64,000 bases of DNA from Pseudomonas muyukensis (GTDB lineage: Bacteria > Pseudomonadota > Gammaproteobacteria > Pseudomonadales > Pseudomonadaceae), in contig NZ_CP077073.1 of the NCBI RefSeq assembly GCF_019139535.1, forward strand, positions 4,616,501 through 4,680,500, written 5' to 3'. Below the pieces are notes generated by a model that was not told the origin of the DNA, ran no database searches, and saw only the letters and a program-made list of their open reading frames with translations. Position 1 is the stretch's first letter, and each line of letters starts with the position of its first letter. A program made the position numbers and the translations under genes. This document shows, one piece after another, positions 56,857 through 61,603 of the stretch.

Positions 56857-58236
56857 ATGGCCTTGGACATCATCGTTGTACTGATCTATGCCGCCGGCAT
56901 GCTCGGCCTCGGCTGGTACGGCATGCGGCGCGCGAAGACCCATGAAGACTACCTGGTGGCCGGGCGCAACCTCGGCCCGACCCTGTACATGGGCACCATG
57001 GCCACCACCGTGCTCGGCGGCGCCTCCACCGTCGGTACCGTGCGCCTGGGCTATGTCCATGGCATTTCCGGTTTCTGGCTGTGCGCCGCCCTGGGCCTGG
57101 GGATCATCGCCCTGAACCTGTTCCTGGCCAAACCACTGTTGCGCCTGAAGATCTTCACCGTCACCCAGGTCCTGGAGCGCCGCTACAACCCGATGGCGCG
57201 CCAGGCCAGCGCGGCGATCATGCTGGCCTATGCGCTGATGATCGCGGTGACCTCGACCCTGGCCATGGGCACCGTGCTGCAGGTGCTGCTGGATGTGCCG
57301 TTCTGGATGGCGCTGCTGTTCGGTGGCGGCGTGGTGGTGGTGTATTCAACCATCGGCGGCATGTGGTCGCTGACCCTCACCGACATCGTCCAGTTCGTGA
57401 TCAAGACCGTGGGCCTGATGTTCATCCTGCTGCCGGTGTGCCTGTACAAGGCCGGGGGTTGGGACGCCCTGGTGGCCAAGCTGCCGGCCACCAGCTTCAG
57501 CTGGACCGCCATCGGCTGGGACACCATCATCACCTACTTCCTGATCTACTTCTTCGGCATCCTGATCGGCCAGGACATCTGGCAGCGGGTATTCACCGCC
57601 CGTGACGAGAAGGTCTGCCAGCGTGCCGGCACCACCGCCGGTGTCTATTGCGTGCTGTACGGCCTGGCCTGCGCCCTGATCGGCATGGCCGCCCACGTGC
57701 TGATGCCGGACCTGGCCAACCCCAACAACGCCTTCGCCGAGATGATCAAGGGCCAGTTGCCCGAGGGCATCCGCGGGCTGCTGATGGCCGCCGCCCTGGC
57801 CGCGATGATGTCCACCGCCAGCGCCGGCCTGCTGGCCGCGTCCACCACCCTGACCGAGGACCTGCTGCCGCGGCTGCGCGGCGGCAAGCAGTCGAGCCTG
57901 GGCATCAACCGCCTGTTCACCCTGCTCACCGGCTTGGTGGTGCTGGGCATCGCCCTGGCGGTGAACGATGTGATCAGCGCCCTGACCCTGGCTTACAACC
58001 TGCTGGTGGGCGGCATGCTGATCCCGCTGATGGGGGCGATCTTCTGGAAGCGCGCGACCACCGCCGGGGCCATTGCCAGCATGTCGCTGGGCTTTGCCAC
58101 CGCGTTGCTGTTCATGTTCAAGGACGGCCTGGATGCCAATTCGCCGATCTACTACAGCCTGGCCATCGGCCTGGTGAGCTTCGTGGTGGTCAGCCTGGCT
58201 TCGCGCAAGCCGGTGAGCGCCGTGAAACTGGCCTGA
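56857..58236 (+). CDS. Sodium:solute symporter (SSS family)
   Basis: A 459-residue protein with 12-13 predicted helices. The SSS signature is visible in RRAKTHEDYLVAGRNLGP at the start, TVLGGASTVGTVRLGY, and AALAAMMSTASAGLLAASTT. In P. aeruginosa an SSS gene (PA1418) stands in the gbuA cluster, so guanidino compounds or their products are plausible substrates. The 147-bp repeat array begins 29 nt after the stop and supplies terminator hairpins. Confidence 0.9.
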   Translation: MALDIIVVLIYAAGMLGLGWYGMRRAKTHEDYLVAGRNLGPTLYMGTMATTVLGGASTVGTVRLGYVHGISGFWLCAALGLGIIALNLFLAKPLLRLKIFTVTQVLERRYNPMARQASAAIMLAYALMIAVTSTLAMGTVLQVLLDVPFWMALLFGGGVVVVYSTIGGMWSLTLTDIVQFVIKTVGLMFILLPVCLYKAGGWDALVAKLPATSFSWTAIGWDTIITYFLIYFFGILIGQDIWQRVFTARDEKVCQRAGTTAGVYCVLYGLACALIGMAAHVLMPDLANPNNAFAEMIKGQLPEGIRGLLMAAALAAMMSTASAGLLAASTTLTEDLLPRLRGGKQSSLGINRLFTLLTGLVVLGIALAVNDVISALTLAYNLLVGGMLIPLMGAIFWKRATTAGAIASMSLGFATALLFMFKDGLDANSPIYYSLAIGLVSFVVVSLASRKPVSAVKLA

Positions 58237-58264
58237 TGCCTTCTGTCCTGACCGCGCTCGTCGA

Positions 58265-59129
58265 CCTTGCCGGCGAACACCGGCGCAGCCGGTGCCAGCC
58301 TCCGCGGTGCCTGCTTCGCCAGCAAGGCTGGCTCCTACGAGGCTGCGCTACAACGCAAAAGGCCGCCGCATCACCTGGATGCGGCGGCCTTTTATCTCGG
58401 CGTAGGAGCCGGCTTGCCGGCGAACACCGGCGCAGCCGGTGCCATCCTCCGCGCCGCCTGCTTCGCCAGCAAGGCTGGTTCCCACAGGGCTGCGCTACAA
58501 CGCAAAAGGCCGCCGCATCACCTGGATGCGGCGGCCTTTTATCTCGGCGTAGGAGCCGGCTTGCCGGCGAACACCGGCGCAGCCGGTGCCATCCTCCGCG
58601 GTGCCTGCTTCGCCAGCAAGGCTGGCTCCTACGGGGCTGCGCTACAACGCATAAGGCCGCCGCATCACCTGGATGCGGCGGCCTTTTATTTCGGCGTAGG
58701 AGCCGGCTTGCCGGCGAACACCGGCGCAGCCGGTGCCATCCTCCGCGGTGCCTGCTTCGCCAGCAAGGCTGGCTCCTACGGGGCTGCGCTACAACGCAAA
58801 AGGCCGCCGCATCACCTGGATGCGGCGGCCTTTTATCTCGGCGTAGGAGCCGGCTTGCCGGCGAACACCGGCGCAGCCGGTGCCAGCCTCCGCGCCGCCT
58901 GCTTCGCCAGCAAGGCTGGTTCCCACAGGGCTGCGCTACAACGCAAAAGGCCGCCGCATCACCTGGATGCGGCGGCCTTTTATCTCGGCGTAGGAGCCGG
59001 CCTTGCCGGCGAACACCGGCGCAGCCGGTGCCATCCTCCGCGCCGCCTGCTTCGCCAGCAAGGCTGGTTCCCACAGGGCTGCGCTACAACGCAAAAGGCC
59101 GCCGCATCACCTGGATGCGGCAGCCTTCT
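58265..59129. repeat. Six-copy 147-bp tandem array of REP pair plus terminator hairpin
   Basis: The marker GCTGCGCTACAACGC starts at 58342, 58489, 58636, 58783, 58930 and 59078: four periods of exactly 147 and one of 148. Each unit holds an inverted REP pair (GTAGGAGCCGGCTTGCCGGC ... TTCGCCAGCAAGGCTGG) and a terminator hairpin of AAAAGGCCGCCGCATC, loop ACCTG and GATGCGGCGGCCTTTT (first at 58357-58393). Copies are nearly identical. The first lacks the left REP end; the last has a degraded right hairpin arm and ends next to the small gene at 59139. The hairpins work on both strands, between two convergent genes. Confidence 0.95.
58357..58393. terminator. First terminator hairpin of the array (symporter gene end)
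   Basis: A perfect 16-bp stem (AAAAGGCCGCCGCATC / GATGCGGCGGCCTTTT) with loop ACCTG, 120 nt after the symporter stop. Equivalent hairpins lie at 58504, 58651, 58798, 58945 and 59093. Confidence 0.88.
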
Positions 59130-59138
59130 TGTCGGTGG

Positions 59139-59267
59139 TCAGCGACGACGCGGCTGGCGTTTGCGCTGTTCTTCGTCGGTCGGGATCGGCACCGGCTGCA
59201 ACGGTGGCGGGAGCAAGCCCAAGGCGACGGCGAGGTCGTGGAGCCAGTTGTACATGCGTTGGTTCAT
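59139..59267 (-). CDS. 42-residue small protein / sRNA locus, PA1414 (SicX)-like
   Basis: ATG at 59267, with AGGGGG four bases upstream, opens a 42-codon frame: MNQRMYNWLHDLAVALGLLP, then a proline-rich middle and a basic tail (QRKRQPRRR). It is too short for most gene finders. An ANR/FNR box lies 106-119 nt upstream and a stable hairpin lies in the leader. The location, between a LysR gene and the gbuA-linked symporter gene, matches PA1414 of P. aeruginosa, which from memory is the low-oxygen, Anr-controlled locus of the sRNA SicX. The peptide start also resembles the PA1414 product as I remember it. Whether the function is peptide, RNA or both is open. Confidence 0.7.
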   Translation of the reverse strand: MNQRMYNWLHDLAVALGLLPPPLQPVPIPTDEEQRKRQPRRR

Positions 59268-59302
59268 AATGCCCCCTTGACGGGTGGTCAATCAATCCTG
59301 CG

Positions 59303-59344
59303 ATGCGTCATACAGATCATAGTCCCATGTCCTGTATGGCGCAT
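59303..59344 (-). ncRNA. Candidate structured 5' leader or small RNA of the PA1414-like locus
   Basis: ATGCGTCATACAG (59303-59315) and CTGTATGGCGCAT (59332-59344) are 13-nt inverted arms with one mismatch around a 16-nt loop. The minus-strand transcript from the ANR-box promoter would start in or just before this hairpin. A 5' stem of this strength is typical of stable small RNAs. The transcript start is not fixed by the sequence. Confidence 0.5.
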
Positions 59345-59372
59345 GCTTCTGTTCTTACACATATGGGCGATT

Positions 59373-59386
59373 TTGACCCGGATCAA
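59373..59386. promoter_or_regulatory. ANR/FNR box
   Basis: TTGAC-CCGG-ATCAA (TTGAT-CCGG-GTCAA on the minus strand) differs from the TTGAT-N4-ATCAA consensus at one position. It overlaps the stop codon of the LysR gene (59383-59385) and faces the 42-codon gene. A good -10 hexamer at the class II distance is not obvious (AAGCAT at 59344-59349 is the best). Confidence 0.75.
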
Positions 59387-60276
59387 GCGCAGATGGCAGC
59401 TTCCGACGGTCGGTCAATCGTTTCGCTTTGTTGCAAATCGATCCAGGCCTGCAAATTTGCCCCACACATGCCCTGGCGCCACATCAGCCAGGTCTGCGCC
59501 TGGTCGAACGGCGCCTGCAACCGATGCACCCGCACCCGTTCATGCCCCGGCAGGCTGTCGAGCATCGACTGGGCCATCAACGCCACCCCCGCCCCGGCGA
59601 TCACGCAGGCCAGCATGCTCTGGTACGACTCGATCTCCATCACCCGCCCCATGGGCGTGTGGGCATGGGCATACCAGGCCTCCAGGCGCATGCGGTACGA
59701 GCAGCCCTGGCGGAAGGTGAACACCGCCTTGCCCGCCACGTCACGGGCCGTTTGCACCGGCGGGTGTTCCGGGCTGGTGATGAGCACCAGCACCTCATCG
59801 CACAAAGGCACGCCATCCAACCCGGCCAGGCTCGGCGGGCCGTCCACCAGGGCTGCGTCCAAGGTATGGCCGAGCAGGCCCTCGAGCAGCTCGCCACTGG
59901 GGGCGGCACGCACTTGCAGGTTCACCGCTGGGTAAGCCTGGTGATAGCGCGCCAGCAGCGCGGGCAAGTGGATGGCCGCGCTGCTGTACATGGTGCCGAG
60001 CAGGAAGTCACCGGCCGGCTGGCCGCCCTGCACCGCGGCCATGGCCTCGTCGCGCAGGGCCGCCAGGCGGTTGGCGTAGTCCAGCAGCACCTTGCCCGCC
60101 GGTGACAACTGCAGGCGCTGACGCTCGCGCAGGAACAGCTCCACCCCCAGTTGTTCCTCGAGCTGACGCAGCCGCGTCGACAGGTTCGATGGCACCCGGT
60201 GCAGGCGCTCGGCGGCACGGGTCAGCGAGCCTTCCTCGGCCACGGCCTGGAAGATACGCAGTTGGCTGAACTCCAT
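59383..60276 (-). CDS. LysR-family regulator beside an MFS gene
   Basis: A 297-residue LysR protein with the usual HTH (LTRAAERLHRVPSNLSTRLRQLEEQLG at about 18-44) and effector domain (GDFLLGTMYSSAAIHLPALL from about 89). The ATG at 60276 has GGAG at good spacing; the TTG four codons earlier is less likely. It is divergent from an MFS gene with a LysR-type palindrome between them, so the MFS gene is the likely target. Its stop codon lies within the ANR box of the downstream small gene. Confidence 0.87.
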   Translation of the reverse strand: MEFSQLRIFQAVAEEGSLTRAAERLHRVPSNLSTRLRQLEEQLGVELFLRERQRLQLSPAGKVLLDYANRLAALRDEAMAAVQGGQPAGDFLLGTMYSSAAIHLPALLARYHQAYPAVNLQVRAAPSGELLEGLLGHTLDAALVDGPPSLAGLDGVPLCDEVLVLITSPEHPPVQTARDVAGKAVFTFRQGCSYRMRLEAWYAHAHTPMGRVMEIESYQSMLACVIAGAGVALMAQSMLDSLPGHERVRVHRLQAPFDQAQTWLMWRQGMCGANLQAWIDLQQSETIDRPSEAAICA

Positions 60277-60312
60277 TAGATTCTCCAAAACAGAACAACT
60301 TGATCATCATTA

Positions 60313-60327
60313 TTCAATTTTGTTGAA
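60313..60327. promoter_or_regulatory. LysR-type palindrome, LysR/MFS divergent gap
   Basis: TTCAA-TTTTG-TTGAA, a perfect 5-bp inverted repeat containing T-N11-A, lies 37 nt upstream of the LysR start and 56 nt upstream of the MFS start. Confidence 0.6.
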
Positions 60328-60382
60328 AGTCAATCCGCCCTACCCTGCCAGCCATCGCATTCCTTCGTGCAGGAGACGCTCC

Positions 60383-61603
60383 ATGTCACCCTTCGTACAA
60401 CTGCTGGCCAGCGCCGTGGCGCTGATGATGGCCATGGGCATCGGCCGCTTCGCCCTCACCCCGCAACTGCCCCAGCTGATCACCGAGGGCCAGTTCGACC
60501 TGACCGCCGCTGGCCTGATCGCCGCCGCCAACTACCTGGGCTACTTTCTCGGCGCGGTGGACGGCATGTTCGCCCGCCAGCCGGCCCAGGTGCGCCTGCG
60601 ACTGCATGGCGGGCTATGGCTGTGCGTGGCGTTGACCCTTGCCTCCTGGGCCGCGGACGGTTTCTGGAGCCACCTGCTGCTGCGCTTTGGCACGGGCGTG
60701 GCCAGCGCCTGGGTACTGGTGATGATCACCAGCCTCAGCCAGCAACTGGCCAATGCCCATGGCCGGCAGCGGCTGGGTACCCTGGTGTTCGCCGGCCCCG
60801 GCGCCGGCATCGCGCTGACCGGCCTGCTGGCCCTGGCAGCGCACCTGCTGGGGCTGGGCTCGGCAACACTGTGGCTGATCTACGGGGTAGCCGCCCTGCT
60901 GATGCTGCTGGCTGTGCTGCCGTGCTTGCCACGGGCACTGGAGCCCGCACCAGCAGCAGCGCACGACGGCCCGCCCCAGGGCGCCGGCATCGGCCGCCTG
61001 GGCTTGGTCTACGCGCTGTACGGTATCGGCTACATCCTGCCCGCCACCTTCCTGGCGCAGATGGCCAACCAGCAGTTCCATGGCCAATGGCTGGCCGATC
61101 TGTTCTGGCCGGCATTCGGCCTGGCCGCAGCGCTCGGCGTGGTGCTGGCCAGCCTGCGCCGCCCCGGCCACACCAGCACCTGGTTGACCGCCACCTTGTG
61201 GCTGCAAGGGTTGGGGGTGCTGGCGTGCCTGTTGGGCGGCGGCCTCGGCCTGGGGCTGGGGGTATTGCTGTGCGGCGGGCCGTTCCTGGCTTGCATGCAA
61301 CTGGTGATGCAACGCTCGCGGGAGCTGGCGCCCCATGCCACGCAGCGCAACGCCGGGCTGTTGACCGCCTGTTTTGCCCTGGGGCAGTTGAGCGGGCCGT
61401 TGCTGGCGGCGTTGAGCAGCCATTTCAGTGGAAGCTTGCAACCGGCGCTGGTGCTGGCGGCGCTGGGGTTGGGGCTGGCCGGGGTGTTGGTGCTGGCCGG
61501 TGGTGCGTCGCGCGCGGCGATCAACCCAAGTTCGCCAGCCTTGCCGGCGAATCCTAGCCCACAACCCTGCGCAACTGCTGGCGCACCCAGCCTTCGGCAC
61601 TGA
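60383..61603 (+). CDS. MFS transporter, YbfB-like
   Basis: A 406-residue protein with 12 predicted helices. The start LLASAVALMMAMGIGRFALTPQLPQL is the mark of the YbfB/YjiJ-like subgroup, putative exporters without a known substrate. The last 30 residues after about 376 are not membrane-like; they are encoded partly by a REP fragment (TTGCCGGCGAA, reading ALPANP) and overlap the convergent EamA gene by 50 nt, so the reading frame seems to have run past an older stop. It is probably regulated by the divergent LysR protein. Confidence 0.87.
   Translation: MSPFVQLLASAVALMMAMGIGRFALTPQLPQLITEGQFDLTAAGLIAAANYLGYFLGAVDGMFARQPAQVRLRLHGGLWLCVALTLASWAADGFWSHLLLRFGTGVASAWVLVMITSLSQQLANAHGRQRLGTLVFAGPGAGIALTGLLALAAHLLGLGSATLWLIYGVAALLMLLAVLPCLPRALEPAPAAAHDGPPQGAGIGRLGLVYALYGIGYILPATFLAQMANQQFHGQWLADLFWPAFGLAAALGVVLASLRRPGHTSTWLTATLWLQGLGVLACLLGGGLGLGLGVLLCGGPFLACMQLVMQRSRELAPHATQRNAGLLTACFALGQLSGPLLAALSSHFSGSLQPALVLAALGLGLAGVLVLAGGASRAAINPSSPALPANPSPQPCATAGAPSLRH

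Follow-up and report, generated by a model that had tools for sequence, protein, structure and literature searches.

Introduction

Small RNAs derived from 5′ leaders and small RNAs with a dual function are known, SgrS and PhrS among them, and the boxes of FNR are found near −61.5 and −71.5 in class I promoters and near −41.5 in class II promoters. In SgrS and PhrS, a regulatory RNA and a small frame share one transcript, as also appears to be the case for SicX of Pseudomonas aeruginosa, whereas in the locus described here only the frame is supported. In the passages of Cao et al. (2023; PMC10247376) on SicX and PA1414, SicX is a small RNA generated from the 5′ end of the 234-bp PA1414, with a Rho-independent terminator lying within PA1414; the expression of PA1414 in P. 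aeruginosa depends on Anr and low oxygen, and SicX raises ubiUVT translation. The same passages present SicX as a species-specific RNA deciding between chronic and acute infection, limit its orthologues to P. aeruginosa on the basis of blastn at more than 90% identity and coverage, and report that a truncated allele, holding the 5′ region only, restored the anaerobic growth of the deletion strain.

A reading of SicX as the leader of a messenger is absent from the passages on SicX or PA1414 of PMC10247376, PMC10926688, PMC13418428 and PMC11705926, and likewise from those of PMC11419262, PMC12087490, PMC12274486 and PMC13210216, supplements and most subscription papers lying outside this search. 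The phrase "PA1414 family" is also absent from the literature searched, and the main text of Tribelli et al. (2019; PMC6588701), in the portions available, does not name PA1414. In the passages of PMC12300143, the matches to PA1414 are prefixes of longer PA14 tags.

The corresponding locus of a putida-type genome, contained in a window of 64 kb (the whole stretch of DNA analysed), is compared here with that of P. aeruginosa through one P. aeruginosa-type genome (G550, locus L230) and the published description of SicX; among the 80 gbuA loci listed, no record carries P. aeruginosa in its title. The GbuA of G550 is 98% identical to PDB 3nio, which we take to be a P. aeruginosa protein. We consider it probable that the locus is that of an ancient gene for a 42-residue protein, most likely activated by ANR, that SicX is a later leader acquired in the aeruginosa/nitroreducens branch, and that the window holds the gene and the box, not SicX.

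The Small Gene and Its Neighbours

The features of the locus are given below, with positions in the window and the strand in brackets.

59383..60288 (−): gene of a PtrR-family LysR-type regulator, occupying the PA1413 position (458.7 bits with the NCBIfam PtrR model, cut-off 400)
59373..59386 (−): ANR/FNR box centred some 70.5 bp ahead of the predicted start, as in class I promoters (motif scan, conservation across loci)
59305..59342 (−): inverted repeat around the −10, the "leader hairpin" of the original prediction (fold, pairing in 24 promoters)
59316..59321 (−): predicted −10, TATGAT (CTA[TC]NAT similarly placed in 92 of 138 loci)
59268..59309 (−): predicted 5′ untranslated leader of about 42 nt (alignment, pair counts; start predicted from the −10)
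59272..59284 (−): Shine-Dalgarno AAGGGGG (59278-59272) and an upstream CCC (59284-59282) able to pair with it (sequence, leader alignments)
59139..59267 (−): 42-codon PA1414-family (NF041729) gene, stop codon included (profile score, dN/dS)
59093..59129 (−): putative intrinsic terminator of the small gene, 16-bp stem followed by TTTT (fold; last unit of a tandem array)
56857-58236: SSF symporter gene, convergent with the small gene

A minus-strand ATG at 59267 and a stop codon at 59141-59139 delimit 42 codons behind the strong Shine-Dalgarno, in agreement with the good ribosome site and the 42-codon frame of the original prediction. The peptide matches the NCBIfam model NF041729, "PA1414 family protein", over residues 1-42 with 76.9 bits (cut-off 28, 6e-22), as an ordinary, full-length member in which no difference from the family was found. 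The neighbours had been claimed to match the P. aeruginosa region, and they do: the LysR and symporter genes are 71% and 75% identical to those of L230, and the guanidinobutyrase-like gene that also neighbours the locus is 90% identical. Together with the profile match, this confirms the placing of the gene in the PA1414 position, and by these features the window gene is to be regarded as the orthologue of the PA1414 gene.

The NF041729 profile detects the family in 288 of 298 genomes from the genus of the window (283 of them above the cut-off), the genus in these counts being the grouping used in the genome set. With the single peptide as a query, matches were obtained in 54 of 95 genomes, namely in 54 of the 59 of the same genus (its own included) and in none of the 36 from other families of the order; the conservation of the peptide among relatives, a check proposed with the original prediction, thus holds by both approaches. 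Members occur in two further genera of the family as well (G550 and G546; G547 and G485), and, among the 80 named loci listed around gbuA, one lies within the fetched flank in 60 and none does in the other 20. Plasmid and phage searches with the peptide gave no match.

Among 54 distinct 42-codon versions, dN/dS was 0.14 over the 458 pairs with pS below 0.6, more divergent pairs (pS of 0.6 or above) being dropped, and the bias was reversed in both shifted frames; the low ratio and its reversal in the other two frames indicate that the small gene is protein-coding and under purifying selection. The predicted model of the peptide, of moderate confidence (pLDDT 78, pTM 0.38), has helices at residues 2-15 and 31-36 and extended stretches, giving a layout of a predicted helix (2-15), a Pro-rich middle and an Arg-rich tail. 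In three genomes (G010, G159 and G208), the family gene stops a few residues early at TAA.

In the window, the frame is already closed by a stop codon 9 codons upstream of the family ATG, and an in-frame stop within 33 codons upstream of it is found in 103 of 132 distinct loci, so that an N-terminal extension is no feature of the group.

The ANR Box and the Promoter

The motif TTGACCCGGATCAA (plus strand, 59373-59386; TTGATCCGGGTCAA on the minus strand, 59386-59373) is the sole TTGAYN4ATCAA within the 64-kb window, where 0.07 would be expected by chance; such a motif turned up in 5 of 100 shuffles. It overlaps the LysR stop codon, as is also seen in L230. Comparison of 24 putida-type promoters (own included) revealed the box TTGAYN4RTCAA without mismatch in 20, with one mismatch in three and with two in one. 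Its centre is at −69.5 or −70.5 in 23 promoters, the last having it at −59.5; three further loci (L010, L020 and L133), with the CCCGT string elsewhere, were left out of this set and have no exact box at this spacing. All these distances are counted from a predicted start placed 12 bases after the first base of TATGAT. The claim of an ANR box embedded in the end of a coding region is therefore sustained by its uniqueness, its position over the LysR stop codon and its conservation.

In a wider set of 132 loci, 61 have a box with at most one mismatch to TTGAYN4RTCAA within −200 to −60, where shuffles predict 1.2, and since LysR was not detected upstream in 21 of these 61, the box seems to belong with the small gene. 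At the same threshold, the box is missing from 71 of the 132 loci; LysR was detected upstream in 29 of these 71, and many of the 29 carry a weaker site at the same place. As judged from the boxes, ANR control of the gene is not universal across loci. In other relatives, the box is centred near −60.5, or near −41 from predicted starts, the −10 calls behind the −41 positions being weak except in L133 and L142. The spacing is thus like that of FNR/ANR class I promoters in the putida type (about −70.5) and in some relatives (−60.5), with starts that are predicted, and like that of class II promoters in those with the box near −41, mostly on a weak −10 call. In a nitroreducens-type locus (L233), what appears by eye to be an EamA-like transporter, not LysR, ends before the box, and box and small gene are found together.

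CTATGAT occurs in all 24 putida-type promoters, evidence that is partly circular because the leaders were picked for having the element, and a generic sigma-70 scan of the window returned no full promoter. A single protein of the window genome passes the cut-off for the FNR family (316.7 bits against 228), and the box stands at a class I distance upstream of the −10, an arrangement that makes an ANR-type promoter of the window gene probable.

The Inverted Repeat and the Leader

The stem of the best fold spans 59346-59300, with arms at 59342-59332 and 59315-59305 that pair at 10 of 11 positions. The likely −10, TATGAT (59321-59316), lies in its loop and implies a start at about 59309, so that the 5′ arm of the hairpin would lie outside the RNA; in the 24 putida-type promoters, 6 to 10 of the 11 positions pair, and the dyad is hence kept only in part. 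By this reading, which depends on the predicted −10, the inverted repeat would be promoter DNA and no conserved leader stem. The structured leader of the original prediction survives as a long-armed dyad in the DNA, but not as a conserved hairpin of the leader; likewise, of what relatives had been expected to conserve, the peptide and the box (61 of 132 loci) were recovered, but the hairpin arms only to the extent just given. The fold of 59110-59360 was no better than shuffles (z = 0.67), and an Rfam scan of 58000-60500 gave nothing near a gathering score. Many putida-type promoters carry an inverted repeat ATACAG-N16-CTGTAT around the −10, and that at 59305-59342 could be the site of a second regulator.

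Within the leader, the three C-G pairs between the CCC and the Shine-Dalgarno hold in 23 of 23 aligned putida-type leaders, the corresponding helix pairs in 100% of the counted cells of 54 other leaders, and the form CCY..RGGG is found in 98 of 132 loci. The 23 putida-type leaders display no covariation. In the 54 non-putida leaders (56 less L045 and L047, which have long insertions), the stem upstream has 33 cells changed on both sides, a number that none of 500 shuffles reached and that fell to at most 21 when the alignment was slid, while the count of pairs with double changes (as high in 159 of 500 shuffles) and that of pair types (188 of 500) were unremarkable. The window leader has no counterpart to the 3′ arm of the upstream stem that its close relatives show.

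The SicX-Type Leader in the Aeruginosa/Nitroreducens Branch

The family gene of L230 is 44 codons long, and the frame counted from a GTG lying 33 codons before it has exactly 77 codons, the length of the annotated PA1414 (234 bp). The annotated PA1414 may accordingly comprise 33 codons of leader read as coding and the true gene of 44 codons. As the frame lengths match in L230, the published 5′-end small RNA would sit before the conserved gene, a placement of SicX in the leader that rests on matching lengths. Between about 57 and 32 nt ahead of the family ATG, L230 has an 11-bp hairpin, which is followed by a pyrimidine-rich stretch and would fit the published SicX terminator.

A 12-mer in a hairpin loop of this leader, which would be part of SicX by way of L230, is invariant in 11 of 139 loci; the other 128 have three or more mismatches to it, and the window has five. 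The 11 loci are those of G550 and G546, of the same genus group, and of nine named records: P. schmalbachii, P. pseudonitroreducens, P. nitroreducens, P. delhiensis, two of P. citronellolis and three of species without a name. The two hairpins of the branch leader contain 4 compensatory cells, a number reached by one shuffle in 500 and falling to between 0 and 2 in slid alignments. Five of the 11 upstream frames meet a stop within 18 codons, so that the conservation of this part is that of an RNA and not of a protein. In all 11, a box one mismatch off lies 60.5 or 61.5 bp before the 12-mer. The SicX-type leader, that is, a long one with two hairpins and the invariant loop, was not found in the window, where the predicted leader is of about 42 nt and carries no such hairpin. 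Accordingly, the proposal of an ancient element holds for the peptide, and for the box in many lineages, both kept far outside P. aeruginosa, but not for the SicX-type leader, found in 11 of 139 loci, all of this branch.

The possibility that SicX-type leaders are RsmA-binding (GGA) RNAs was considered and rejected, enrichment being observed only in L230 (p 0.0055) and not in the other ten: five GGA triplets occur within the first 40 nt of the L230 leader, whereas its ten relatives have three or four, at chance level.

The ubiUVT Target

UbiU is over the cut-off in 69 of the 298 genomes of the window's genus. It is not over the cut-off in the window genome, whose only U32 proteins are TrhP and a 741-codon frame far below the cut-off, and UbiV is missing too, since the same U32 search, which detects UbiV elsewhere, found none. 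At least 214 of the 298 genomes carry the small gene without UbiU, a bound that takes the NF041729 and UbiU counts to cover one and the same set, as the agreeing genome handles suggest. The published target operon of SicX is ubiUVT, of which the window genome lacks UbiU and UbiV; given these absences and that of a SicX-type leader, the claim that a low-oxygen SicX small RNA is an ancient feature of the genus is not supported.

Pairing calculations between leader and ubiU did not reproduce a significant interaction: across eight genomes, no duplex energy was clearly better than with shuffled leaders (the lowest number as good was 39 of 200), in L230 shuffled controls were as good in 153 of 200, and an accessibility-weighted 12-nt scan of L230 was equalled by 22 of 25 shuffled targets. 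In two nitroreducens-type genomes, scanned without a control, the best site set the conserved loop against the region of the ubiU ribosome site; since the pairing calculations are not significant, the loop is at most a candidate for the published seed.

An ANR-like box with one mismatch is present in 7 of 8 ubiU upstream regions (L236, L235, L202, L210, L206, L211 and L214, not L234), and for this reason ubiUVT may be ANR-controlled in several Pseudomonas groups. Two genomes, G118 and G215, have two UbiU genes each.

Interpretation and Alternative Explanations

Under the preferred reading, a drop in oxygen would lead ANR to dimerise on the box near −70.5 and to recruit RNA polymerase, in a class I manner, to the TATGAT promoter, which is devoid of a good −35. 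The resulting mRNA, of about 215 nt and ending at the terminator, would be translated from the strong Shine-Dalgarno, which the conserved CCC could mask. The peptide would be the conserved product, the same gene standing behind different kinds of leader across the group; in the aeruginosa/nitroreducens branch, the leader would have become a two-hairpin element of about 110 nt with an invariant loop, the one known there as SicX.

That a regulatory RNA of the SicX type, with a structured leader, is encoded in the window itself, and that such a low-oxygen RNA is ancient in the genus, appears very unlikely. The shared locus, the ANR box and the gene family would accord with it; nevertheless, the short predicted leader, the five mismatches to the loop 12-mer, the lack of a terminator-like hairpin before the gene, the position of the dyad around the −10, the absence of UbiU and UbiV and the restriction of UbiU to 69 of 298 genomes, against 283 over the cut-off for the gene, all argue against it. 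SicX/PA1414 and the window share an orthologous locus, a box over the LysR end and transcription toward the symporter gene, as compared through L230, but the long leader, the invariant loop and the terminator-like hairpin ahead of the gene belong to SicX/PA1414 only; by the features that could be tested, the window element is not the SicX small RNA. It is also very unlikely that the box has another role or is a palindrome that arose by chance over the stop of the LysR gene: the overlap with a coding end and the blank promoter scan would suit it, but place and spacing are kept in 23 of 24 putida-type promoters, and 21 boxed loci have no detected LysR.

Two alternatives concern the division of labour between RNA and peptide. 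The transcript may be dual-functional in both putida and P. aeruginosa, encoding the peptide and pairing in trans with other mRNAs in the manner of SgrS, for which the function of the RNA from the transcript start in P. aeruginosa (PMC10247376, in the passages on SicX) and the doubly changed stem of the 54 non-putida leaders (33 cells, 0 of 500 shuffles) may be cited; structural conservation, however, needs no trans action, 2 of 5 covariation measures lie within shuffles, the 3′ arm of the stem is missing in the window and the putida-type leaders lack covariation, all of which makes this unlikely. It is also rather unlikely that, in the P. aeruginosa branch, only the leader RNA still matters and the peptide is carried along as a passenger, the peptide being the functional part elsewhere. 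The restoration of anaerobic growth in the deletion strain by the 5′-only allele (PMC10247376, same passages) speaks for this, but the family gene is open in L230 and other branch loci, with an early end (38 codons) only in L085, and 5 of the 11 upstream frames, by contrast, meet a stop within 18 codons.

Returning to the reading of an ancient gene with a later leader, it seems to us rather likely that SicX is the messenger leader of an ancient ANR-switched small protein, made trans-acting in the aeruginosa/nitroreducens branch, and that it extends to P. nitroreducens, P. citronellolis and kin. The PA1414 start codon and frame that were mutated to demonstrate that PA1414 acts as an RNA only may then be those of a mis-annotated extension, so that the protein of 42-44 residues, carried without UbiU by at least 214 of 298 genomes, would be an unstudied low-oxygen factor of the whole group. 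If the gene is group-wide, often ANR-boxed and preceded by an RNA leader of later origin, two products may have been lost at once in the published deletions; the small protein would need a test of its own, apart from SicX, for which putida-group strains such as P. putida KT2440 would be a clean setting.

The Region Downstream of the Small Gene

The terminator at 59093-59129 is absent from the terminator scan, whose criterion is 5 T in 8 bases, and, in 14 putida-type relatives, the terminator motif occurs at most once in the 1200 bases downstream. Between the symporter gene and the small gene of the window (58266-59127), there are 5.9 tandem copies of a 147-bp unit with 96% matches, each unit carrying a terminator-like hairpin and a putative REP element.
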